Assembly (NCBI RefSeq): GCF_011758655.1
Contig: NZ_JAAMPA010000001.1
Coordinates: 868,001 to 932,000, forward strand
Direction: 5' to 3'
DNA length: 64,000 nt
Source: Modestobacter marinus
Lineage (GTDB): Bacteria > Actinomycetota > Actinomycetes > Mycobacteriales > Geodermatophilaceae
Part shown: piece by piece, positions 1,032 to 39,680 of the stretch
Position numbering within the stretch: position 1 is the stretch's first letter
Layout: each line of letters begins with the position of its first letter
Translations under genes and position numbers: made by a program
The notes under the pieces: model-generated
The model's input: only the letters and a program-made list of their open reading frames with translations
Database searches by the model: none
Told to the model about the DNA's origin: nothing

Positions 1032-2003
1032 GTGCTGATCAGCGTCGTGCTGCCCGTCTACAACGACGCGACCCACCTCGCCGACGCGATCGACCGGGTG
1101 CTGGGCCAGGAGGGGGTCGACGTCGAGCTGGTGCTCGTCGACGACGGCTCCACCGACGGCTCGCGGGCGATCGCCCGGGCCGCGGCCGACCGGGACGCCC
1201 GGGTCCGGTTCGTGCCCCTGCCGGAGAACGGCGGTGTCGCGCGGGCCCGGGAGCGCGGGGTGCAGGAGGCGACCGCGGAGTGGATCTGGTTCGTCGACTC
1301 CGACGACGGCTGGCTGCCCGACGCCGCCGCCCGGCTGCTGGCCGCCGCGGAGGCGGCCCCCGACACCGACGTGGTGGTGGCCGGTGCCCGCGCCACCTTC
1401 GAGTCCGGCAAGGCGCCCACCCGCACCGACCCGCCGTCCGGCCCGCCCGTCCCGGGCAGGGAGGCGTTCCGCCTCTTCCTGACCGGGCGGATCACCGGGC
1501 ACCTGTGGAACAAGCTGTTCCGCCGGGAGCTGCTGCGCACCATCGACTTCACCCCGGCGCGGGTGCAGTCCGACCTCGCCATGGTCGCCCAGGCGGTCGC
1601 CGGCGCCCGCCGGGTGGCCTTCCTGCCGGTGGCCGTCTACGAGTACCGGGTGCGCAGCGCCTCGATCATCACCACCCGGTCCCGGCGCGCGGAGTCCCTC
1701 GAGCTCATCGCCGCCGCGGTCGAGACCGCCGCCCGGCGGGTGGACCCCGCCGTGACCGGCACCGCCGAGTACCGCTACTTCGTCACCCGCTACCTCACCC
1801 TGTCCGGGCTCAAGGACGCCGTCCTCGGCTCCTACGGCCCCGCGGAGAGCGCGGAGCTGGTGCGCCGGCTGCGCCGCCGGCTCGGGGTGCGGGAGCTGGT
1901 GCTCCTGGCCCGCCGGCGGGACGCCAAGCGGCTCGCGCTGGCGGCGTCGGCGAAGGTGTCCCTGCCCGCCTACCGCCGGCTCCTGGCCGTCGCCGACCGG
2001 TGA
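1032..2003 (+). CDS. Family 2 glycosyltransferase
   Basis: 323-residue GT-A type enzyme that would transfer a sugar from a nucleotide donor to a growing surface polysaccharide. The N-terminus is the canonical GT2 start (SVVLPVYNDATHLADAI), followed by VLVDDGSTDGS and the metal-binding FVDSDDGW segment around residues 93-100. No membrane segment is evident. GTG at 1032 has a good Shine-Dalgarno (ggaggaaa) a few bases upstream. It follows the CHAP-like gene by 18 bp and precedes a pyruvyl transferase and a GT4 enzyme, so the four probably form one operon. Donor and acceptor cannot be read from the sequence. Confidence 0.85.
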   Translation: MLISVVLPVYNDATHLADAIDRVLGQEGVDVELVLVDDGSTDGSRAIARAAADRDARVRFVPLPENGGVARARERGVQEATAEWIWFVDSDDGWLPDAAARLLAAAEAAPDTDVVVAGARATFESGKAPTRTDPPSGPPVPGREAFRLFLTGRITGHLWNKLFRRELLRTIDFTPARVQSDLAMVAQAVAGARRVAFLPVAVYEYRVRSASIITTRSRRAESLELIAAAVETAARRVDPAVTGTAEYRYFVTRYLTLSGLKDAVLGSYGPAESAELVRRLRRRLGVRELVLLARRRDAKRLALAASAKVSLPAYRRLLAVADR

Positions 2004-2156
2004 GCACCGTCGCCGGGCCGGGAGGTGCGTTACCGTTCGGCGGCTCCCAGGGCCGTGTGTACCCGCGCACCGCAGGTGCCGTCGAGGCCACCCGGAGCCG
2101 CGTGTCCTGAGGTGCCGCTGACGCCACCGCCGCCACCGTCCCCGAAAGGCGCCCGC

Positions 2157-3278
2157 ATGACGAAGGTGTTCGCGATCGGCCGCGGCCAGTACGAGAACGT
2201 GGGAGACATCATCCTGCGCCGGCAGCTGCTCGACTGGGTCCGGCCGGCCGGTGAGCTGCACGTCTACGTGGGCGCCTCCCCCGACGGCTACGACGAGGGC
2301 CTCGGCCTGCGGCCCGGCGACCGGGTCTACCGGTCGCTGCGGGCCTGGTACCGGGTGGCCCTGGCCTCGGCGCTGCGCGGTGAGGCCGCGTACGTCTTCA
2401 AGCCCGGGGAGATCCAGCTGACCCTGGTGGGCATGAAGGAGCACCTCTCCCTGCTGCCCCTGCTGGTGGCGCTGAAGCTGCGGGGCGGCGCGGCCGTCCG
2501 GGCCGGGGTCGGCACCCGCAACTTCGCCGCCGTGCCGCGCGCCCTGATGCGCCCGTCGATCGCACTGTCGGACCGGACGCTGTGGCGCGACGACGCGACC
2601 GGGCGGTACATGGGCACCGGCGCGGTCATGCCGGACCTCGCCTTCGGGGAGGGCGCGGACGACGCCGCCGTCTCCCGGTTCGCCTCCCCCGCCCCGGAGC
2701 GGAACGCGCTCGTGGTCTCGATGCGCGGCGAGGACCCGGCCCGCCCCTACCCGAGCCGGGCGTGGCTGGACGGCGTCCGGTCCTACGCCGCGGCGCACGA
2801 CCTGGAGATCTGGGCGGTCACCCAGGTCTGGACCGACGAGGAGCGCTCCCGGCGGCTGGCCGCGGACCTGGGCGGCCAGGTGCTCGGCTGGACGGGCCCC
2901 ACCGGGCACGACGAGCAGGAGCGCCGGCTGCGGGAGCTCTACTCCCGCACCGCGGTCGTGCTGTCCGACCGGCTGCACGTGGTCATCGCCGCGTTCACCG
3001 AGGGCGCGGTGCCGGTCGGCTCGCCGGTGGGGGACTCCGACAAGGTGGACCGGCACTTCACCACCATCGGCATCACCGGGGTGACCGTCTCGGCCGGCAT
3101 CGACTCCGCCGACGAGCTGGTGGCCCGGCTGGAGGCCCTCGCCGGACGGCGGGCCGAGCTGTTCGCCGCCCTCCTGGAGGCGCGCCGGCGGCTGCGCGGG
3201 CACCGCCAGGACATCCAGCAGGTGCTGTCCGGGCGTTCCCCGGCGGCGCCGGCCACCACCGAGCCGGTCGCGGGCTGA
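2157..3278 (+). CDS. Polysaccharide pyruvyl transferase family protein
   Basis: 373 residues. The N-terminal GRGQYENVGDIILRR segment and the C-terminal LSDRLHVVIAAF followed by DSDKVDRHFTTIGI match the WcaK/CsaB-type polysaccharide pyruvyl transferase pattern, in which ketal pyruvate is moved from PEP onto a sugar. ATG at 2157 is preferred over in-frame upstream codons because it follows a purine-rich gaaaggcg and begins the conserved fold. Some members of this family act on other substrates, so pyruvylation itself is an inference. The gene lies between two glycosyltransferases in an apparent operon. Confidence 0.75.
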   Translation: MTKVFAIGRGQYENVGDIILRRQLLDWVRPAGELHVYVGASPDGYDEGLGLRPGDRVYRSLRAWYRVALASALRGEAAYVFKPGEIQLTLVGMKEHLSLLPLLVALKLRGGAAVRAGVGTRNFAAVPRALMRPSIALSDRTLWRDDATGRYMGTGAVMPDLAFGEGADDAAVSRFASPAPERNALVVSMRGEDPARPYPSRAWLDGVRSYAAAHDLEIWAVTQVWTDEERSRRLAADLGGQVLGWTGPTGHDEQERRLRELYSRTAVVLSDRLHVVIAAFTEGAVPVGSPVGDSDKVDRHFTTIGITGVTVSAGIDSADELVARLEALAGRRAELFAALLEARRRLRGHRQDIQQVLSGRSPAAPATTEPVAG

Positions 3279-3283
3279 CGGCG

Positions 3284-4336
3284 GTGACGACGTCCCGGCC
3301 GACCGTGTTCCACCTGGGCCGCGTGGGCGACATCCCCGGCGGGATGACCCAGGTCATGAACGGCTACCTGGCGTGGCCCTTCCCGCGGGTGGACGTCGCG
3401 GTGCTCACCTCCCGGGGCGACCCGCACGACCTGCGGGCGACGCTGGTGAAGGGCGCCGGCGCGCTGGCCCGGGTCCTGCGGCTGCCCCGGCGCTCCTCGG
3501 TCGTGGTGGCGCACATGTCCGAGCGGGGGTCGTTCGTCCGCGAGGGCGCGCTGATGCGGGTGGCCCACGCCCGCGGCATCGCCACGGTGGCACACCTGCA
3601 CGGCAGCTCCTTCGCCGCCTTCGCCGCCGCGCACCCGCGGCTGACCGGCTGGGCGCTGCGCGGGGCCGACCGGGTGATCAGCCTGTCGGCCGAGTCCTCC
3701 GAGGTGGCGGCGCGGTTCGTGCCGGCCGAGCGGGTCGTGCTGATCCCAAACGCGATCCCCTCCAGCGCACCCGCCGCGAAGGAGGACCTGGTGGTCTTCG
3801 GCGGCGTCGTGTCGCACCGCAAGGGCATCGACGTCCTGCAGGAGGCGTGGTCCCGGATCGACGCCCCCGGCTGGGAGCTGGTCGTGGCCGGCCCGGTCCA
3901 GGACGCCGCGCTCGTGCGTCCGGACGTCCCGGGGCTGACGATGGCCGGTTCGCTGGCGCACGAGGAGCTCATGGCGCTGCTGGACCGGTCGCGCATCGCG
4001 GTGCTCCCGTCCCGGGACGAGGCGATGCCGATGTTCATCCTCGAGGCGATGGCCCGCGCCAACTGCGTCATCTCCACCGACGTCGGGGGCATCGCGGCCG
4101 TCCTGGGGGACGAGCACGGCATCGTCGTCCCACCCGCGGACGTCGAGGCCTTCCACGCCGCCCTGCAGTTGGTGCTCAGCGACCCGGAGCGCCGGTCGCG
4201 GCTGGCCGGGTCGGCCCTCCAGGCGTTCGAGGAGCGCTACAGCGCCGACGCGGTCTTCCCCCGGGTCGAGGACCTGTGGCTCGCCGCACTTGCCGACCGC
4301 CGTCGACCCGCCCGTCGAGCCTCGACGAAAGACTGA
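3284..4336 (+). CDS. Family 4 glycosyltransferase
   Basis: 350-residue GT-B enzyme. The N-terminus has the glycine loop near GDIPGGMTQVMNGY; the C-terminal half has the GT4 signature: FGGVVSHRKGIDVLQEAW, a nucleotide-sugar site with LPSRDEAMPMFILEAMA (E-x7-E type) and VGGIAAVL. It would transfer a sugar with retention of configuration during polysaccharide assembly. GTG at 3284 lies 5 bp after the pyruvyl-transferase stop, so translation is probably coupled. This is the last gene of the run; a 365-bp gap follows. Confidence 0.82.
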   Translation: MTTSRPTVFHLGRVGDIPGGMTQVMNGYLAWPFPRVDVAVLTSRGDPHDLRATLVKGAGALARVLRLPRRSSVVVAHMSERGSFVREGALMRVAHARGIATVAHLHGSSFAAFAAAHPRLTGWALRGADRVISLSAESSEVAARFVPAERVVLIPNAIPSSAPAAKEDLVVFGGVVSHRKGIDVLQEAWSRIDAPGWELVVAGPVQDAALVRPDVPGLTMAGSLAHEELMALLDRSRIAVLPSRDEAMPMFILEAMARANCVISTDVGGIAAVLGDEHGIVVPPADVEAFHAALQLVLSDPERRSRLAGSALQAFEERYSADAVFPRVEDLWLAALADRRRPARRASTKD

Positions 4337-4701
4337 CACCCAGGGTCACCGAATGGTCACCGGATTTCGCGATCGCACCGGCGAATGCAGTGAATGCGTG
4401 ACCGGGCGCATGCGATGAGTGACGTTCCTCAATGCTGTTAGTGACCTCCTGATCACAGACAGAAATGCGCCACCACCGCCGTCCTCATCGGCAATTGTTG
4501 TGGCTATGGTGTCCACGCTCTGACGAGTGGACGACCTCTCAGTTCCCGCTGAACAGCAGGCGGAGTCATGACGGTCGGACTCCGCTCCGTTGTGTAGTCG
4601 CCAACTGTTCTGAGGTCGAAGATGCTCGAAGAAGTCACTGCACCAGCAGGCCCCGCGTCGACGGTCGCCGGCCCCTCCCACCCGACGGGGGCGTGCTCCC
4701 G
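4337..4701. other. Intergenic region before the tyrosinase gene
   Basis: 365 bp with noticeably lower GC than the flanking genes. No convincing gene is seen. Two short hairpins are visible: gtcca/tggac arms at 4511-4532, and an 8-bp stem gcggagtc/gactccgc at 4560-4585 with a 10-nt loop. Either could be part of a leader or a weak terminator; no clear promoter could be assigned. Confidence 0.4.
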
Positions 4702-5586
4702 ATGACCGGGACGAGGCGGAACATCCTGAGCCTGTCACCGAGCGAGGTGCAGCGGCTGACGTCGGCCTTCAACGTGCTGAAGGCGAACGGCACCTACGAC
4801 GAGTTCATCCGGCACCACGTCGACGCGATGAACATCGCGACCCCGCCGGGCTCCACGCGCAACGCCGCCCACCGGGCACCGGCCTTCCTCCCCTGGCACC
4901 GCGCGACCCTCCTCGACATCGAGAACGCCCTCCAGGCCGTCGACCCGTCGATCGAGGGCCTGCCCTACTGGCGGTGGCAGAACGAGACGGCGCTCAACGG
5001 CGGCGACCCGCGACGCTCCCCGCTGTGGAGCGCCGGGGGCATCGGCGGGGACGGCGACCCGGCCCGGGGCAACCGGGTGCTCAACGGGCCGTTCGCGCAC
5101 TGGGTGGCGCTCATCGTCAACAACACCACCGGCGCCATGGTCCCGCGCTCCACCCCCGGCCTCATCCGCATGCTCGGCCGCGACCCCCGCGGGTCGACGA
5201 GGTTGCCCGACCCGTCGCAGGTCACCGATGCCATCGACCGCTACTCGACCTACGACCGGTCGCCCTGGGACGCCACCGTGGCGACCTTCCGCAACCGGAT
5301 GGAGGGCTGGTCCGGAGGCCCCCGCATGCACAACCTGGTGCACCGGTGGGTGGGCGGCGACATGCTCGCCGGCACGTCGCCGAACGACCCGGTCTTCTGG
5401 CTCGTCCACGGCAACGTGGACCGGCTCTGGTGGGTCTGGCAGGGGATGCGCGGCGTGAACAACTACCAGCCCGCGTCCGGCGGCCCCACCGGCCACAACC
5501 TCAACGACACGATGCAGGGCCTGATCGTCCCGCGGACCCCGGCGGACGTCCTCGACATCACCCGGCTCGACTACACCTACGTCTAG
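4702..5586 (+). CDS. melC2: Tyrosinase (type 3 dicopper monooxygenase)
   Basis: 294 residues, close to the 270-300 of Streptomyces tyrosinases, which oxidise phenols to o-quinones for melanin. CuA ligands are visible in FIRHHVDAMN and AHRAPAFLPWHR; CuB in MHNLVHRWVGGDM and NDPVFWLVHGNVDRLWWVWQ. No signal peptide is present; in streptomycetes the enzyme is exported with its Tat-targeted cofactor, which is encoded directly downstream here. ATG at 4702 is chosen (ggggg run upstream); GTG at 4693 is an in-frame alternative. The gene ends in an ordinary TAG stop, relevant because TAG also encodes selenocysteine elsewhere in this window. Confidence 0.93.
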   Translation: MTGTRRNILSLSPSEVQRLTSAFNVLKANGTYDEFIRHHVDAMNIATPPGSTRNAAHRAPAFLPWHRATLLDIENALQAVDPSIEGLPYWRWQNETALNGGDPRRSPLWSAGGIGGDGDPARGNRVLNGPFAHWVALIVNNTTGAMVPRSTPGLIRMLGRDPRGSTRLPDPSQVTDAIDRYSTYDRSPWDATVATFRNRMEGWSGGPRMHNLVHRWVGGDMLAGTSPNDPVFWLVHGNVDRLWWVWQGMRGVNNYQPASGGPTGHNLNDTMQGLIVPRTPADVLDITRLDYTYV

Positions 5587-5600
5587 GAGGACCAGCGCTC

Positions 5601-5924
5601 ATGGATCGCAGACGTTTCATGATGGGGGCCACCGTGGCTGTGGCCGGCACGGCGGTGGCCGTGACCGGGACCCCTCCGTTCGACGACATCCCTGAGGCAG
5701 CGGCCGCCGCAGAGGAGCGCTTCACCCACCGGGGGCGCAAGGTGGTCATCCAGAAGGTCGGGAAGAACGCACATGCCGTGGTCAACGGCCGGCACGGCGT
5801 CCACCTCGAGCAGATGAACGGCGGGTACGCCACCCACCTGCTCCCCTTCGCGACGTACAAGGCGCCGCGCAAGGCCGTCGAGGCCGTCATCGAGGCCGAG
5901 GACGCCGGGCTGCTGATCGTCTAG
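5601..5924 (+). CDS. melC1: Tyrosinase cofactor (caddie) protein with Tat signal
   Basis: 107 residues. The N-terminus MDRRRFMMGATVAVAG is a twin-arginine signal. The mature part (HRGRKVVIQKVGKNAHAVVNG, then MNGGYATHLLPF) resembles MelC1, which donates copper to apo-tyrosinase and carries it through the Tat pathway. A strong aggagg sits 9 bp before the ATG. In the classic Streptomyces operon the cofactor gene comes first; here it follows the enzyme, 14 bp downstream. A hairpin terminator lies 28 bp after the stop. Confidence 0.85.
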   Translation: MDRRRFMMGATVAVAGTAVAVTGTPPFDDIPEAAAAAEERFTHRGRKVVIQKVGKNAHAVVNGRHGVHLEQMNGGYATHLLPFATYKAPRKAVEAVIEAEDAGLLIV

Positions 5925-5951
5925 CCAGTCGGGCACGGACGGCAGGACACG

Positions 5952-5982
5952 GGCGGGGCGCTGGGCAGACCAGCGCCCCGCC
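5952..5982 (+). terminator. Hairpin terminator after tyrosinase operon
   Basis: Perfect 13-bp stem (arms 5952-5964 and 5970-5982) with a 5-nt loop, 28 bp after the cofactor gene stop and followed by a T-containing stretch. Likely ends the tyrosinase transcript. Confidence 0.7.
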
Positions 5983-6250
5983 TGTGTCGTCTCGGCGTGC
6001 TGCCGGTGGCCCTCGGCGGCACGGGGCGCCGGTGACCGGGTCTGCGACCGCGCCGTCCTGGTGCCGGCGGCGAGGGTGGACGGCCGCGTGTCGCCCGGAC
6101 GGCGTGCGGGGCGGCCCGTCGGCTGGACGGTCCGGGGAGCCGGCCGTCGCCGGCAGGGCGTGCGCAGCCGGCCGTACGGGGGCAGGACGCACTCAGCGGA
6201 CTCTCAGCGGCACCGGTGCGCGGGAGCCGGCTGTCGCCGGTGCCAGACGA
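5983..6250. other. Intergenic region between convergent transcripts
   Basis: 268 bp between the two hairpins that end the converging tyrosinase and sugar-transferase transcripts. It is GC-rich and open in several frames, but no frame has a plausible start or recognisable product. Nothing else is seen. Confidence 0.4.
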
Positions 6251-13461: not shown

Positions 13462-14598
13462 TCAGCGGGTGATGGTGCTGGCCTCGTCGGTCGGGACGTC
13501 GTTGCCCTCGCTGCCGTCGGCCGACGCTGCGCGGGCGGCCTCCCGGGCGGCGATCCGCTCCCGCTGCGGGACCACCGTGTACTTCGGGTCCCGGGCGCTG
13601 GCCATGCCGGCCTCGAAGACGCCGAACCGGGTGAGCAACGAACCGGCGGCCAGCAGCGCACCGGAGACCGCAGCACCGACCCGGGTGCGGCCGGCCACCA
13701 CGGTCAGCCCGGCACCGCCGGCGGTGCAAGCCCGCGCGGCCTTCATCAGCTTCCCGGGCCGGCCCAGCTGGTACGGCTCACCGACGATGCCGTGGTCGTG
13801 CTCGACCTTGTGCATCGCGGCCAGCTCGACCGCCGCACCGGCGACCGCCATCTTCCGGGCCGGCCCCGCGTCGGCGACCGGGGTGAACGCCATGCAGATG
13901 CCACCGCCGGCCGCCATCCCGGAGCCGGCGAACACGAACGGCAGCTCCTTGTACGGCGCGTGCCACGACGGCACCGCGGTGTTGGCCAGCAGCACCGCCG
14001 TGTAGGTGGTCATGGGGCCGCCGAAGACCGCGGAGACGCCACCGGTGAGCTTCTCCAGCGCCGGGAACCAGCCCGAGATCCGCCGGAGCCCGAACCTCTG
14101 CAGGCCGGGGAACGCCTCGAGCAGCTGGAGCCCCGCCGTCGCCGCGGTCAGCGCGCTGAACGGCGCCAGGATGTAGGAGCCCACCGACAGCGGCGAGGTC
14201 GGCTTGATCACCCGCAGCATGTGCAGGAACCGCTCGGGGCGACCCAGGTCGTGGATCAGCCAGACGACCGAGGCCAGGGCCCCGCCGCCGGCCGTGTAGT
14301 GCGCGACCCGGGTCAGCGCGCGGTTGCCGCTCGCGTCGGCGATCGCACCGAGCACGGCCGACGAGCCCGCCGCACCACCCAGGAACAGGTACAGCGGCAC
14401 GTCCGGGGTCTTCCACACCGGCGGCTTGATGATCGGCCGGCCGTAGTAGGAGGTGAACTCGGCCTCGTCGACGGTCGGGTCACCGTCGCGACCACCGCCA
14501 CGGCGGCCGCCCTTCCGCCGCTTCTTCTCCCGCGCCTGGGCCGGCGGGCCGTCGGCCCGTCGCCAGCCTGCGCCCGGCGTCACCAGTCCCTCGGTCAC
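13462..14598 (-). CDS. NrfD-type membrane subunit of formate dehydrogenase
   Basis: 378 residues, about eight membrane helices (for example VPLYLFLGGAAGSSAVLGAI, SVGSYILAPFSALTAATAG). This matches the NrfD/PsrC family, which passes electrons from an Fe-S subunit to quinone in the membrane. The basic N-terminus (EKKRRKGGRRGGGRDGD) is predicted cytoplasmic. It is the last gene of the operon after the catalytic and Fe-S subunits. Start choice: GTG 14598 has aaggggatgcgcc upstream; the ATG at 14634 sits in the centre of a 24-bp palindrome and is less likely. Confidence 0.85.
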   Translation of the reverse strand: MTEGLVTPGAGWRRADGPPAQAREKKRRKGGRRGGGRDGDPTVDEAEFTSYYGRPIIKPPVWKTPDVPLYLFLGGAAGSSAVLGAIADASGNRALTRVAHYTAGGGALASVVWLIHDLGRPERFLHMLRVIKPTSPLSVGSYILAPFSALTAATAGLQLLEAFPGLQRFGLRRISGWFPALEKLTGGVSAVFGGPMTTYTAVLLANTAVPSWHAPYKELPFVFAGSGMAAGGGICMAFTPVADAGPARKMAVAGAAVELAAMHKVEHDHGIVGEPYQLGRPGKLMKAARACTAGGAGLTVVAGRTRVGAAVSGALLAAGSLLTRFGVFEAGMASARDPKYTVVPQRERIAAREAARAASADGSEGNDVPTDEASTITR

Positions 14599-14618
14599 CG
14601 GCGCATCCCCTTCTGCTG

Positions 14619-14642
14619 GGGCAGAAATGGCCATTTCTGCCC
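14619..14642. promoter_or_regulatory. 24-bp perfect palindrome centred on atggccat
   Basis: Perfect palindrome without spacer in the 55-bp gap between the Fe-S and membrane subunit genes. It could fold as a hairpin with a GGCC loop and act as an intra-operon attenuator or mRNA processing site. The same atggccat centre recurs in palindromes at 32363-32390 and 34779-34814. Confidence 0.6.
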
Positions 14643-14653
14643 TCGGACGTGGG

Positions 14654-15766
14654 TCATCGGGTGCGCCGGGAGCCGAGCACGGCCGAGAGCGCGAAGCCGA
14701 CCACCATGGCCGCGCCGCCGACGGCGTGCTTCCACATCGACGGGAGGTCGCGGGTGGTGACGATCGGGTCCGGCGGCAGGCCGTAGACCTCCGGCTCGTC
14801 GAGCAGGAGGAAGAACGCCCCGGCACCGCCGACACCGTCCTCCTCGTCGCGCCCGTAGAGCCGGGCGGTCTGCACGCCCTGCTCCTTGAGCGTGGCCAGC
14901 CGGGCGTCCGCCCGGGCCTGGAGCTCGTCGAGGTCACCGAACTGGATCGACTGGGTCGGGCACGCGGTCGCACAGGCCGGCTGGAGGCCGTCGGTGAGCC
15001 GGTCGTAGCACATCGTGCACTTGAAGACCCGGCCGTCGTCCTTGCGCTGGTCGATGACGCCGTAGGGGCAGGCCGGCACGCAGTAGCCGCAGCCGTTGCA
15101 GATGTCGCCCTGCACCACCACGGTGCCGAACTCGGTGCGGAACAGCGCCCCGGTCGGGCAGACGTCCAGGCAGCCGGCGTGCGTGCAGTGCTTGCACACG
15201 TCGGAGGACATCAGCCAGCGGATCTCGCGGTCGGCCGACTGCCCGGTCTGCGGGTCGAACTCGCTGAGCGCCTCGGCGTTTGGCACGCTGGACTGCGCGG
15301 TCAGCCCGCCGTCGGCGTTGCCGCCGTGCGACCGGGCGTGCTCGTCGGCCCCGCCGCCGGACCCGCAGCCGCCGGAGCCGCAGCCCCCACCGGACCCGGC
15401 GGCGTCTGCACCGGGCAGCCCGACACCGGGCATGGGCAGGTCGACGGCGCGGCTCTGCTCGACGAACGCCACGTGCCGCCAGGAGTTGGCGCCGAGCATG
15501 CCGGTGTTGTCGTAGGACTGCGCCGTCAGGCCCATGGCGTCCCGGTTGCCCTGCGCGTCGTCCATCGGGAGCGTGTTCCACTCCTTGCAGGCGACCTCGC
15601 ACGCCTTGCAGCCGATGCACACCGAGGTGTCGGTGAAGAAGCCCACCCGCGCGGGGTGGTCCTCCTCGTACCCGGCCTCCCCGCTGACGTCGGGCAGCGG
15701 GCCGTAGAGCCGGTTGGCCGGGTCGTTGCCGGTGAGCGCTGGGCTGGCCGAACTGACGGTCGTCAC
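14654..15766 (-). CDS. fdhB: Formate dehydrogenase iron-sulfur subunit (four [4Fe-4S] clusters)
   Basis: 370 residues. Sixteen cluster Cys are visible in four groups: C50/53/56/60, C191/194/199/203, C223/226/229/233 and C250/253/265/269, the pattern of FdnH/FdoH-type electron-transfer subunits. A C-terminal hydrophobic helix (AVGGAAMVVGFALSAVLG) would anchor it in the membrane. Between the first two groups is an unusual insertion of Gly/Cys repeats (GSGGGCGSGGCGSGGG, residues 124-139) with two extra Cys. GTG at 15766 has an excellent ggaggaggag upstream. It lies 31 bp after the catalytic subunit gene. Confidence 0.92.
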   Translation of the reverse strand: MTTVSSASPALTGNDPANRLYGPLPDVSGEAGYEEDHPARVGFFTDTSVCIGCKACEVACKEWNTLPMDDAQGNRDAMGLTAQSYDNTGMLGANSWRHVAFVEQSRAVDLPMPGVGLPGADAAGSGGGCGSGGCGSGGGADEHARSHGGNADGGLTAQSSVPNAEALSEFDPQTGQSADREIRWLMSSDVCKHCTHAGCLDVCPTGALFRTEFGTVVVQGDICNGCGYCVPACPYGVIDQRKDDGRVFKCTMCYDRLTDGLQPACATACPTQSIQFGDLDELQARADARLATLKEQGVQTARLYGRDEEDGVGGAGAFFLLLDEPEVYGLPPDPIVTTRDLPSMWKHAVGGAAMVVGFALSAVLGSRRTR

Positions 15767-15797: not shown

Positions 15798-18700
15798 TCA
15801 GCTCGTCCCCTCCTCGATCGGTGCCCGGCCGCCGCTGGGGACGAGGCCCGACTGGACGCCCGCCCGGATCCGGTAGTCCTCCACGTACTGCACCAGCTCC
15901 CGCCCGCGCGGACGCCGCCCGGGCTGGATGTCGCAGGTGGCGACCTTGGTCTCCTGGATGTGCACGTTCGGGTCCATGACCACGCCGAACAGGTCGTTGC
16001 CCGAGTCGCCGGTGGACAGGCCCTGCTCGCCCCAGTGGTACGGGATGCCGATCTGCTCGACGACCTGGCCGCCCTTGAGCTTCATCGGCCGCATCCGCTC
16101 GGTGACCAGCACCTTCGCCTCGATCGCCGTCCGGGCGCTGATCAGCGTCGCCCACCCGCCGCTCTCCAGCCCCCGCAGCTCGGCCAGCTGCGGGCTGACC
16201 TCGACGAAGAACTCCGGCTGCAGCTCCGACAGGTAGGGGAGCGTGCGGCTCATCGCACCGGCGGTGTGGTGCTCGGTCAGCCGGTACGTGATCATCGCGA
16301 ACGGGTAGACCTCGCTGCGCGGCGGGTTGCCCCGGTTGTACGCAGCCTGGATCTCCTCCCGGCCCGGGTTGGCCTGCTGGCCGTACAGGGCGTTGTCCAC
16401 CGGGGACTCGGCCGGCTCGTAGTGCGCCGGCATCGGACCGTCGGCCAGCCCGGCCGGCACGTAGAGCCACGCCTTCCCGTCGGCCTGCATGACGAACGGG
16501 TCGGCGCCGCCGATGCCGGCCTGCGCCACCGCGCCCTCCGGCGGGACGTAGTCCGGCCGCTTGGTCGCCTCGAAGTCGGGGACGTCGTGACCGGTCCACT
16601 TCCCGGCCTCCTCGTCCCACCAGACGTAGGCCTTGCGCTCGCTCCACGGCTTGCCGGACGGGTCGGCCGAGGCGCGGTTGTACAGCGTGCGCCGGTTCGA
16701 CGGCCACGCCCAGCCCCACTCGGCGGCGACCCAGTCCTGCTCCCGGCCGGGCTTGCGCCGGGCGGCCTGGTTGACCCCGTCGGCGTAGACCCCGGTGTAG
16801 ATCCAGCAGCCGCCGGTGGTCGACCCGTCGTCCTTCATGTCCAGGTAGGTCGAGAGCATCTCGCCGTCCGGACCGGAGCCGTTGATCTCCCGGAGCACCG
16901 CGTCCGCACTGGGCTCGTCGTGCTCGCCGTGCGTCGGGTAGTCCCAGGTGAGGTCCAGCAGCGGACGGTCCCGGGGGTCGGTGGACCCGGCCAGCTTCTC
17001 CCGGAGCCGGCGACCCAGGTGGAAGTAGAACCACAGGTCGCTGCGGCAGTCGACCGGCGGCTCGACCGCCTTGTGCCGCCACTGCAGCAGCCGCTGCGTC
17101 TGGGTGAAGGTGCCCTCCTTCTCCACGTGCGTGGCCGCGGGCATGAAGAACACCTCGGTGGCGATGTCCTCGGTGACCAGCTCGCCGGTCTCGATCTCCG
17201 GGGCCGTCTTCCAGAACGTCGCCGACTCGATCATCTGCAGGTCGCGGACGACCAGCCACTCCAGGTTGGCCAGGCCGAAGCGCTGCATGCGCCCGTTGGC
17301 GCTGCCCACCGCGGGGTTCTCGCCCACCAGGAAGTAGCCGGGCACGTTGCCCTGGATCATGTCGGCGACCGTGGTGTACGTGCCGTGGTCACCGGTGATC
17401 TTGGGCAGGTAGTTGAACGCGAAGTCGTTCTCCGCCGTCGCCGCGTCGCCCCACCAGGACTTCAGCATGCTCGTGGTGTACGAGCGCATGTTGCCCCAGA
17501 AGCCGACCCGGTCGTCGCTGGAGGCGCAGAAGCTGTCCAGGTCGGTGTGCTGCTGGGCGTGGGGCATCGGGATGTAGCCGGGCAGGATGTTGAACAGCGT
17601 CGGGATGTCGGTGGAGCCCTGGATGCTCGCGTGCCCGCGCAGCGCCAGGATCCCGCCGCCCGGGCGGCCCATGTTGCCCAGCAGCGCCTGCAGGATGCCC
17701 GCGGTCCGGATGTACTGCACGCCCACCGTGTGGTGCGTCCAGCCCACCGAGTAGACCCACGCCGTCGTCCGCTCGCGGTTGCTGTTGGCGGTGACCCACT
17801 CGGCGACCTTGAGGAACACCTCCGGCTCGATGCCGCAGATGTCGGCGACCATCTCCGGGGTGTACCGGGCGTAGTGCCGCTTGAGCACCTGGAAGACGCA
17901 GCGCGGGTGCTGCAGCGTCTCGTCCCGCTTCGGCTTGCCGTGGATGTCGGCCGAGCCCTGGGCGCCCTGCTGCTGGTCGGCCTCCTTCACGCCCTCGGAC
18001 TCGTCGTCGGTGCCGTCGTCCGCCGCGTCGTCGGGCCGGTCGCTCCCGTCCTCGTCGACGCGGAAGGCCGACCCACCGGGCTGGCTCGGCGAGCGCTGGC
18101 CGGCCGAGGCGGGCACGTTGACGCCCTCGTACTGCCAGGTGGTCTCGTCGTACTGCCCGGTCTCCGGGTCGAAGCCGGAGAAGAGGCCGTCGAGGTCCTC
18201 GGTGTCCTGGAAGTCCTCACGCAGGATCGCCGCCGCGTTGGTGTAGGCGACGACGTACTCGCGGAAGTCCAGGTCGTTGTCGAGGACGTACTTGATCAGC
18301 CCACCGAGGAACGCGATGTCGGTGCCGGCGCGCAGCGGGACGTGCAGGTCCGCCAGCGCGCTGGTGCGGGTGAACCGCGGGTCGATGTGGATGACCTTCG
18401 CGCCCCGCGCCTTGGCCTCCATGACCCACTGGAAGCCGACCGGGTGGCACTCGGCCATGTTGGAACCCTCGATCACGATGCAATCGGAGTTCACCAGGTC
18501 CTGCTGGAAGTTCGTGGCGCCGCCACGACCGAACGAGGTCCCCAGACCGGGGACCGTCGCGGAGTGCTATATGCGGGCCTGGTTCTCGATCTGCACAGCG
18601 CCCATGGCGCTGTACAGCTTCTTCATGAGGTAGTTCTCCTCGTTGTCCAGGGTCGCCCCGCCGAGGCTCGCGATGCCCAGCGTGCGGTTCACCCGGTGCC

Positions 18701-19127
18701 CGTCGACCTCGTCCTGCCAGCCCTTGCGGCGGGCGTCCAGGACGCGGTCGGCGATCATGTCCATGGCCGTGTCGAGGTCCAGGTCCTCCCACTCCGTCCC
18801 GTGCGGACGGCGGTACTTGACCGTGGTGACGCGGCTCGGGCTGGTGACCAGCTGCTTGCTGGCGCTGCCCTTGGGGCAGAGCCGGCCCCGGCTGATCGGC
18901 GAGTCCGGGTCGCCCTCGATCTGCACGACCTGCTCGTCCTTGACGAACACCCGCTGGCCGCAGCCCACCGCGCAGTACGGGCAGACCGACTGCACCACCC
19001 TGTCGGCGGTCGCCGTGCGGCTGACCACCTGTTCGGTCGCCTTGCTGCGCGCGGCCGTGCCACGCCCCAGCGGATCAGGACCCGTCAGCTGCCGGAACAC
19101 CGGCCATGCATCCAGCCACGTCTTCAC
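15798..19127 (-). CDS. fdhA: Formate dehydrogenase catalytic subunit, selenoprotein with UAG-encoded Sec187
   Basis: 1109 residues if the in-frame TAG at 18567-18569 is translated. The first [4Fe-4S] motif is C49-x2-C52-x3-C56 (SVCPYCAVGCGQ) with C84 in GRLCPKG. Codon 187 lies in ENQARI-stop-HSATVPGLGTSFGRGGATN, precisely where molybdopterin formate dehydrogenases carry the catalytic Sec or Cys ligand. The frame is intact on both sides, and a SECIS-like hairpin follows (separate entry). The enzyme oxidises formate to CO2. Residues 339-399 hold an acidic low-complexity insertion. No Tat signal is seen. GTG at 19127 begins the characteristic VKTWLDAWPVFRQLTGPDPLG. True stop is TGA. Confidence 0.93.
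18534..18559 (-). promoter_or_regulatory. Bacterial SECIS hairpin for UAG selenocysteine insertion
   Basis: In the mRNA, an 11-nt spacer after the TAG leads to a perfect 7-bp stem (ggucccc/ggggacc) capped by the loop ggucu, extended below by cga/ucg with one bulged C. The loop sequence equals the apical loop of the E. coli fdhF SECIS, and the distance from stop codon to loop is 18 nt, as in fdhF. This loop is the SelB binding feature. Confidence 0.9.
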
Positions 19128-37448: not shown

Positions 37449-38516
37449 CTAGCTGACCAACGGCTGTCCGAGCTCGACATCCATGCGGCGGAACGCGGTA
37501 CTGAAGACATCCGCGACCACTCGACTCATTGATTCACAGAGCCGGTTCCAGTCCATGGCCTCACGGCGCACCGCCTCCTGCCCGACCCGAAAGTGGACTA
37601 ATCGATTTCTCAATTCGTAGATAGCACGAGCCGCCGCGACCTTAACGTCATCAGCTGGCCCGACGTTCAACTGGTCACATATCTCGCGAAGGTCACCATC
37701 GTCCGCATACTGCAACACGAGGACAAGACTTTGAGCTTCGCGCGGGTACCATCCAATCTCTTTCTGCAGAACCGCGGCAATCGACTGCCACGACTCATCT
37801 ACTTGCAGTGCTACTGCAAGCCTGCGGCACGCCTCGTATGCGTAAGTCGCCTCAATGCACCTATATAAGGCCATATACATGGCGGTCGGGTCCCAGTCGA
37901 AGATCGATCGACAAAGGGCACCATACGGCAAGTCGGCATTCTGAATGCTGGCTAGGTTGACCAACCCTTCCCGCAAACCCGCGTCTACCCACGACTCCCC
38001 CAGGGAGCATTCATCAACACCCAAGAGCAAAAAGACACGCCAAGTACTTTCGGCCGGCATGTTGGAGCATTCATATAGGCGCACCTCGGGAAAAAGCGAG
38101 TGAACGCTTCCGATGTCATGCCCTATATATCCAACGTCGCCCATCTTGCCGACTTCAACGATGTTCCGCACCATCGAGGCTGGCGCAACGGGGAGTGGGC
38201 GAAGCTCCGAGAGTATCGCCACGACGGCACCGCCGTTGGCCTCGACGGAAACCAGACCGTCGACGGAAGAGTCGAACTCAAACCCTACCGTCACGAAGTA
38301 GTGCGCCTCTTCGACTGCAATTCGAGCAATAGCGCGGCGCAGCCCAAAACGAACAACCTCAAGTATTCGCAGTTCCTTCAAGTACCGCTTGTCAGCGTCG
38401 TCGCTGGCGACGAATCGTCGAGCATCACCATTTGGCCATTCATCCCCTCGATCTCGACAGTAATCAAGTAGGTGGCCAAACAGTGCAGCGTTGGCTGCGA
38501 TCATCTCCCGCGACAT
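37449..38516 (-). CDS. Island gene A: hypothetical protein with HEPN-like motif
   Basis: 355 residues, family not recognised. Near the C-terminus (about residues 305-316), AIYELRNRLVHFR contains R-N-x3-H, the pattern of HEPN ribonuclease active sites, preceded by helical sequence. The N-terminal 200 residues are mixed alpha/beta without a named domain. ATG at 38516 directly follows the TAA of gene B (TAAATG), so translation is coupled. It ends in TAG with no SECIS-like hairpin. An RNA-targeting toxin or defence effector is a reasonable hypothesis only. Confidence 0.55.
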   Translation of the reverse strand: MSREMIAANAALFGHLLDYCRDRGDEWPNGDARRFVASDDADKRYLKELRILEVVRFGLRRAIARIAVEEAHYFVTVGFEFDSSVDGLVSVEANGGAVVAILSELRPLPVAPASMVRNIVEVGKMGDVGYIGHDIGSVHSLFPEVRLYECSNMPAESTWRVFLLLGVDECSLGESWVDAGLREGLVNLASIQNADLPYGALCRSIFDWDPTAMYMALYRCIEATYAYEACRRLAVALQVDESWQSIAAVLQKEIGWYPREAQSLVLVLQYADDGDLREICDQLNVGPADDVKVAAARAIYELRNRLVHFRVGQEAVRREAMDWNRLCESMSRVVADVFSTAFRRMDVELGQPLVS

Positions 38517-39680
38517 TTAGTTAGCCCGCCAGCAGGGCTCCATACTCGGTACCTCGAATTGATCCTCAATTAGAGCTTTGAACGCCTCATAAAAGACGGA
38601 CCGCTCATAGCGACCAACCTGTCCGACGCGTCGGTCCAGCGTCTCTGCTAGAACATCTAGCTTCAAGAATTCGCCCAGCTGCTCGTCGTCGAGTTCGTTC
38701 AATCGGGCCAGAAGGGTGTCCGACCAACTCTGAACACGCGCAAGTCGGCGACCACGGTCATCGGCAGAAGTGTCGGCCCCCGGCCGGCCGAGGACATATG
38801 CACCGATCGCAACAATCAACCCAATTCGTGCGGGCTGCGCCCCAAAAACATCTTTACCCCGACTGTACCGTTGACCGGAACCGGCGTCGAATCGCGTGAA
38901 GGCTCTGTCTAGAGCCGCAAGAATCCCCATAGCGGAATAGAATTGCTCTTGGAACTCGGGCTCTGAGAGATTTTCCACGAAGTCTAGCCGCGAGAACTCG
39001 TCGGAGACGGCTTCTCTTGTATCGACAGACGTTTTCCGTAGCGAGAAGGCGATGTACAACTCGACCAAGTGACTACTCGAGTACTGTCCGGCGTCCACGC
39101 GCCGCCCTGGACTGTCGGGCGTGAACACCCTCTCGACACCTGAGACGCGGCCTACGATCTCTTCGATTAATGGCGCATAGATCACTGAAAGCTGACGACT
39201 GATCGTCCAGGGCACTTGGCCGGTGTTCAGCACCAACATTCGATAAATCATGCTTCTCACGTTGCTGGCGATCCAGAATTCAACGCGGATTGATCGAGAT
39301 TTCAGTGCGTCGCTTATCTCGAGGGCCTCTAGCATTGCGGCAGTTCGCTGCATACCGTCGATAATCGAAAGCGTCTTGATGGTTCCTTCTGGCAGGAACT
39401 CGGCCACCGCCGAGGCGTCCTCCATAGGGAGCTTTCCGAATAGGTCGGCTGGAACGACGGCTCCGATGACCACCGGGGGCAGCACGGCCCCCAAGTTCAA
39501 GTCAGCAACCATCCGCGTGCGGATGCGTTTCGCCGTTGTAGTAGTCAACACGTCACGCTGACCAGTGAGCGACCCTTGGGACTCGTGCGCCTCTCGAATT
39601 AAGGTCACATAGTCAGGAACCGTCATAGTTGTCTGGACTGACCAACATTGAGTTCTATCGTCGAACAACCAATCCATCAC
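38517..39680 (-). CDS. Island gene B: DGQHR/DUF262-like protein
   Basis: 387 residues. LSIIDGMQRTAAMLEALE (residues about 105-122) resembles the DGQHR/DUF262 signature, and LVLNTGQVPWTISRQLS about 50 residues later resembles the N-T-x-Q element that follows in such proteins. DUF262 and DGQHR proteins (GmrS, DndB and relatives) occur in restriction and phosphorothioation systems and share a ParB/Srx-like fold. The rest is helical and unrecognised. GTG 39680 or ATG 39677 is the start, with gagagg upstream. It is the first gene of the island pair. Confidence 0.6.
   Translation of the reverse strand: MMDWLFDDRTQCWSVQTTMTVPDYVTLIREAHESQGSLTGQRDVLTTTTAKRIRTRMVADLNLGAVLPPVVIGAVVPADLFGKLPMEDASAVAEFLPEGTIKTLSIIDGMQRTAAMLEALEISDALKSRSIRVEFWIASNVRSMIYRMLVLNTGQVPWTISRQLSVIYAPLIEEIVGRVSGVERVFTPDSPGRRVDAGQYSSSHLVELYIAFSLRKTSVDTREAVSDEFSRLDFVENLSEPEFQEQFYSAMGILAALDRAFTRFDAGSGQRYSRGKDVFGAQPARIGLIVAIGAYVLGRPGADTSADDRGRRLARVQSWSDTLLARLNELDDEQLGEFLKLDVLAETLDRRVGQVGRYERSVFYEAFKALIEDQFEVPSMEPCWRAN

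Follow-up and report, generated by a model that had tools for sequence, protein, structure and literature searches.

Does the TAG codon that interrupts the gene for the catalytic subunit of a formate dehydrogenase (FDH) in Modestobacter marinus terminate translation, or does it specify selenocysteine (Sec)? The gene lies in a stretch of 64,000 nucleotides (the window; C1:868001-932000) of a 5.1 Mb draft assembly in 12 contigs, and a preliminary description, made from the letters of the window, had taken the codon for a Sec codon. The comparisons reported below lead, with high confidence, to the same prediction: the UAG in fdhA is translated as Sec by a tRNA-Sec with a CUA anticodon.

UAG-Sec in FDH is a kind of recoding that is already known. 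In the part of Santesmasses et al. (2017; PMC5330540) drawn on here, a CUA tRNA-Sec is given for three Geodermatophilaceae genomes, together with FDH, UGSC, and AhpC selenoproteins, with a report of 2016 as the source, and AhpC-UAG is named for B. saxobsidens DD2. The earlier statement that UAG-Sec had been reported in Geodermatophilus and Blastococcus agrees with this published record for the family, FDH included. The present case resembles those described there in its CUA tRNA-Sec, in TAG within FDH and AhpC genes, and in a SECIS element after the codon, and differs in that the member of the family is a Modestobacter. The window had also been said to fit this family, and it does; Modestobacter, Blastococcus, and Geodermatophilus are among the names given for public protein relatives of genes of this genome. 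A literature search that lacked most subscription journals found no later family-wide work on UAG-Sec, and a text search of a 2026 review found no mention of Geodermatophilaceae or Blastococcus. Mukai et al., writing in Angew Chem in 2016, reportedly found UAG-Sec in Geodermatophilaceae, FDH included, with labelling experiments. A later review (PMC10778597) describes the 2016 work, in brief, as having recoded UAG, UAA, and a further ten sense codons.

The interrupted gene, its hairpin, and its relatives

The FDH alpha reading frame comprises 1116 residues, seven of them upstream of the likely GTG start (Table 1). As first described, it is interrupted once: the three bases in question are CTA on the plus strand and TAG on the minus strand, no further internal stop occurs, and the frame is intact on both sides, with ENQARI before and HSATVPGLGTSFGRGG after the TAG. 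Read through, the protein scores above cut-off in the profile search against NF041513 (1947 bits; cut-off 1400) and TIGR01553 (951 bits; cut-off 814) and carries the Pfam domains Molybdop_Fe4S4, Molybdopterin, and Molydop_binding; these two scores, with genes for a beta and a membrane subunit adjoining, identify it as a formate dehydrogenase N alpha subunit. The beta subunit scores above the Pfam cut-off for Fer4_11 and, at 180 bits, under the cut-off of 335 for TIGR01582. The frame of the membrane subunit matches PF03916 NrfD (44 bits; cut-off 25.8) and gave zero matches in the NCBIfam profile search. The insert in the beta subunit reads GGGCGSGGCGSGGG.

Table 1. Coordinates of the FDH locus (window positions) and of two further candidate selenoprotein genes (contig positions).
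Feature	Position	Strand	Remarks
fdhA, formate dehydrogenase alpha (catalytic) subunit, UAG read through	15798..19127	-	GTG start at 19127 inferred
In-frame TAG, catalytic Sec/Cys site	18567..18569	-	codon 187 counted from GTG
AUA (Ile) codon directly 5' of the Sec codon	18570..18572	-	AUC avoided at site
Bacterial SECIS hairpin GUCCCC-GGUCU-GGGGAC	18538..18554	-	apical loop 18544-18548
fdhB, iron-sulphur beta subunit with Gly/Cys-rich insert	14654..15766	-	Fer4_11 86 bits
NrfD-type membrane subunit inside open frame	13462..14973	-	true start probably near 14634 (inferred)
AhpC-like candidate selenoprotein gene	C2:961641-962309		RGDW-UAG-PYCC
AhpD-related candidate selenoprotein gene	C3:129328-130302		NDCFY-UAG; NF041238 222.5 bits (cut-off 175)

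Downstream of the UAG, the stem of the SECIS hairpin starts at the 16th base counting from the U of the codon. An ungapped alignment of 54 distinct FDH sites (32 UAG, 22 UGA; 60 bases from the codon, identical rows left out) has 99.4% of 324 cells paired over the six pairs of this hairpin, compared with at most 64.5% in slid controls, and its loop reads GGUCU, AGUCU, or AGUUU. The pair of columns 18 and 30, which links position three of a Val codon with that of a Gly codon, is CG in 29 sites, GU in 11, UA in six, GC in five, and UG in three; the covariation score was reached by none of 500 shuffles, and 12 of 500 matched the observed number of two pairs in which both partners vary. With this pairing and synonymous covariation, the hairpin is conserved as RNA, whether the codon is UAG or UGA. 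GGUCUG stands at an equal distance from the Sec codon in E. coli fdhF. In this genome, the FDH-type SECIS model, which misses the AhpC-like and AhpD-related sites, found fdhA as its sole strong match; the next two (E 2.25 and 3.67) were rejected as second hairpins of the FDH type, neither beginning with a stop codon.

Across the family, the TAG at this residue is retained. Among the matches listed from 112 Geodermatophilaceae genomes, all 99 near-full-length FDH alpha subunits (from residue ~1-51 to beyond 1080) contain a TAG, and the codon itself is TAG in all 42 distinct family loci that were read (second copies L070, L121, and L150 left out of the count), at about 60-100% protein identity; because it is kept throughout both sets, its presence at the Sec site goes beyond chance. 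The same residue is encoded by TGA in 50 loci of the order, four plasmid-collection records, and E. coli fdhF, and by the Cys codon TGC in two records, from Nonomuraea and Chelatococcus. In pattern scans, the UGA-FDH pattern occurred in 0 of 51 Geodermatophilaceae genomes and in 144 of 247 from the rest of the order, and the UAG-FDH pattern in two of 394 genomes of the class, the sole two Geodermatophilaceae in that sample. FDH genes with TAG recur in genomes of nine genera in which the CUA tRNA-Sec is also present, a repetition that leaves a sequencing error in this draft assembly with a negligible probability. Genera g6-g8 yielded no close FDH alpha among the matches listed.

A true stop, which would make fdhA a pseudogene or divide it into two separate peptides, would agree with the ends of other genes in the window, where TAG also serves as an ordinary stop, as had been noted: the tyrosinase gene (4465-5586) terminates in TAG, and TAGs at 5922, 37449, and 59080 close open frames of 316, 355, and 423 residues. 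Yet a plain stop accords poorly with a TAG held at one residue in every family locus read, with frames open on both flanks, with a hairpin that covaries synonymously, and with a CUA tRNA-Sec in 101 of 108 family genomes, and we regard it as extremely improbable. The proposed dependence of the meaning of TAG on its context fits the position of the SECIS hairpin 3' of the Sec UAG.

Some other features of these loci are recorded here. One of the two FDH copies in G080 (L074, C12; L075, C4), the exception within the Geodermatophilaceae, differs from the other at the left end, the right ends being about equal; both copies are without the Sec/SECIS segment, through real loss or an assembly artefact. 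Extra stops considered as second Sec codons (TGA in G009 and G098, TAG in G061 and G031) were rejected, being located just upstream of the start or at the protein end. Within the window, a plus-strand frame ending in TAG at 5924 comes shortly after the tyrosinase gene (region 4465-5924), and two neighboring minus-strand frames at 37449-39680 have low third-position GC (0.63), no Pfam match (including in the scan of frame 37449-38516), and likely represent foreign DNA.

The tRNA-Sec and the predicted residue at the UAG

The preliminary description had looked to the host genome for selC with a CUA anticodon and for selA, selB, and selD, and expected neither a CUA tRNA-Sec nor SelB there if its reading was wrong; both are present, and all four genes were found on contig C3 within 12.1 kb. 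The selC gene (C3:284342-284433, 92 nt, anticodon CUA) scores 65.8 bits against RF01852 (cut-off 47). With NCBIfam profiles, SelA reaches 412 bits (cut-off 268), SelB 286 (cut-off 242), and SelD 387 (cut-off 125); one SelB lies above the cut-off genome-wide. On C3, the set comprises selD, selC, selA, and selB, with a LacI-type regulator and sugar ABC transporter genes placed between selC and selA (L006:626-8201); in G059, selC adjoins selA directly. A second tRNA-Sec, with a UCA anticodon, was not found among the 150 of 1328 first-look candidates that were scored, the four RF01852 matches being the CUA gene and three tRNA-Ser genes.

The program ARAGORN labels the CUA tRNA as tRNA-Pyl because of its anticodon, and tRNA-Sec is initially charged with serine; both points could be taken to mean that the tRNA reads UAG as another residue, pyrrolysine or serine. 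Here, as with pyrrolysine, a dedicated CUA tRNA would decode UAG as an amino acid in a subset of genes. The differences lie in the tRNA-Sec fold, in SelA, SelB, and SelD, in the SECIS element, and in the Sec/Cys site. In the relevant passage of PMC7609411, tRNA-Pyl is marked by a three-base variable arm; the CUA gene of this genome matches RF01852 from end to end and has a long variable arm, unlike a tRNA-Pyl. With SelA and SelD also present, and with UGA or Cys at this site in the relatives listed above, insertion of pyrrolysine or serine appears very unlikely.

For the Sec reading, the predicted course is as follows. Seryl-tRNA synthetase (SerRS) would charge the CUA tRNA-Sec with serine, SelA would turn the serine into Sec on the tRNA with selenophosphate from SelD, and SelB would bind the SECIS hairpin and carry the Sec-tRNA to the UAG, where it would compete with release factor 1; at UAGs that lack a hairpin of this kind, translation would end.

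Probable anticodon change and repeated recoding in Geodermatophilaceae

A tRNA-Sec was recognized in 108 of the 112 Geodermatophilaceae genomes (G068, G072, G097, and G098 are left out of the tally; two G072 matches above the Rfam cut-off are tRNA-Ser, and the matches in the other three are weaker). The 101 genomes with CUA account for 102 loci; the remaining seven, all in genera g6-g8 and with fragmented, mostly incomplete assemblies, have UCA only, and G059 has one UCA gene in addition to its CUA gene. One UCA gene of g8 differs from the nearest CUA gene at six positions out of 93, including two within the anticodon. Outside the family, the one contig match for a CUA or UUA tRNA-Sec (L119) was rejected as an ordinary amber tRNA by Rfam, in a scan whose pattern omits the family's C:G anticodon-stem pair and so covers lineages that lack this pair and conform to the pattern. 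With three genera that have UCA only, we infer as direction and place of the change that the anticodon would have switched from UCA to CUA within the Geodermatophilaceae; selenoprotein genes, including the FDH genes of several lineages, would have been recoded from UGA to UAG.

Trees were built from 87 and from 72 FDH proteins, the codon column being masked. In them, genes with UAG fall among those with UGA in five distinct groups: a main one and those of L077, L078/L079, L080/L081, and L085. Both trees left out short sequences (L073, L102, L110, L111, and L112) and the duplicates L070 and L121, and for the smaller one a further 15 near-copies from the main UAG clade were dropped. A single UAG group occurs in none of 200 bootstrap trees and is rejected by the AU test (p 1.1e-5). 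Since the UAG genes fall into five clades and one clade is rejected, recoding from UGA to UAG probably occurred repeatedly in FDH genes, with UGA taken as ancestral; for each gene, this would have happened either in an old paralogue when the anticodon changed or in a gene acquired afterwards.

The codon before Sec also distinguishes the two sets. The FDH of this genome shares the enzyme type, the Sec position, and the distance to the SECIS loop with the UGA-Sec FDH of other Actinomycetes (NF041513 type) and with E. coli fdhF, and differs from them in that UAG replaces UGA and that AUA always precedes it, whereas AUU mostly precedes UGA. The Ile codon is ATA at 42 of 42 UAG sites, in all five groups; at the 50 UGA sites the preceding codon is ATT in 41, ATA in eight, ATG in one, and ATC in none. 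Over the rest of these genes, ATC accounts for 97.6% (UAG) and 94.1% (UGA) of the Ile codons. ATA thus also precedes UGA, and the independent-pair test is not significant (five pairs, of which 3.4 agree, 0 disagree, and 1.6 show no difference; p 0.125-0.5), fewer than six pairs being unable to reach 0.05. One idea is that an A before UGA creates an out-of-frame AUG (AUGA), so that U is preferred, and that this cost is gone with UAG; it leaves the avoidance of AUC unexplained. The preceding codon was rejected as a general rule and holds only for Ile in FDH: AhpC-like sites have W (TGG) and AhpD-related sites TAC before UAG, and Val forms of UGA-FDH (Indioceanicola, E. coli) use GTC.

The case draws its value from the anticodon switch, the repeated recoding, and a likely two-codon genome. 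It supports a move of the Sec codon from UGA to UAG by the change of one tRNA anticodon, probably in another genus. It sets relatives that have one or the other anticodon beside FDH genes with UAG in several separate lines, so that comparison can test in which order the steps of a codon reassignment took place. The passages of PMC5330540 drawn on here do not include an AhpD-related UAG gene, a family-wide tally, UCA-only genera, repeated recoding, the AUA rule, or a genome with two tRNAs.

Further candidate selenoproteins and a possible two-codon genome

Two further genes of this genome are candidates for UAG-Sec (Table 1). The AhpC-like gene, probably of the published AhpC-UAG type, has TAG in 28 of 28 intact homologues, and a distant homologue reads RGSWCPYC, with Cys at the UAG position. 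The hairpin 3' of its UAG is nearly invariant and therefore beyond a covariation test. The AhpD-related gene has CFY-UAG, with UAG at the CxxU position, in six of six full-length homologues; for its SECIS no consensus hairpin was found, the folds of the six sequences differing. Paralogues of both genes carry Cys at the UAG position. Public-protein relatives of both include Modestobacter, Blastococcus, and Geodermatophilus. A W-x-P-x-C motif is missing from all 120 public AhpC-like relatives listed, those printed starting after the UAG, and 48 of the 55 public AhpD-related relatives listed end in CxY just before the UAG; because public proteins start after or end before this codon, annotation misses likely selenoproteins. 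A scan for the UGSC selenoprotein (PF24696) gave no matches in this genome, but also none in any control genome. In two genera, AhpC-like loci (L314, G104 C79; L315, G029 C14) keep the TAG and share a one-base deletion at the SECIS stem, with the downstream frame still open for about 185 codons. This could reflect frameshifting, loss that has recurred, or a sequencing error in the hairpin.

Contig C17 of G059 carries an intact UCA tRNA-Sec (L068:1173-1263, 81.8 bits) and, about 315 bases from it, a CMD/peroxidase-related gene (from L068:1579; region to 2157) with an in-frame UGA at a CxxU site (NRCFY-UGA-MESHAEF). Among its 120 listed relatives, this site is W in 59, Cys in 22, and Leu in one, and the motif could not be fitted in 38; the W would be gene-caller output for UGA under code 4. 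The GC content of C17 is 70% in the first 1500 bases, 60-64% over 1501-6000, and 74-79% past 24 kb, C11 having 78%; IS30 and IS21 transposases come after the stretch with the UCA tRNA and the peroxidase-like gene. On C11, the CUA selC is accompanied by SelA (407 bits), SelB (269), and SelD (380), all above cut-offs; the FDH gene (L048) has UAG, and one SelB lies above the cut-off. As judged from these genes, G059 is likely a two-codon Sec organism in which one SelB would serve both tRNAs. Against this reading stand a possibly silent UCA tRNA, the position of the stretch at the end of a contig, and a possible misassembly. We lean, with some reservation, towards a joint reading of the family: Sec would be encoded by both UAG and UGA in one G059 cell, UGA-Sec would have been regained through a portable cassette of selC and a selenoprotein gene, and the FDH genes of the family would have been recoded to UAG, with AUA preceding, in five lines.

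The selB gene of G059 (L069:12708-14483) itself ends in TAG, the codon at which its product is predicted to assist Sec insertion elsewhere.
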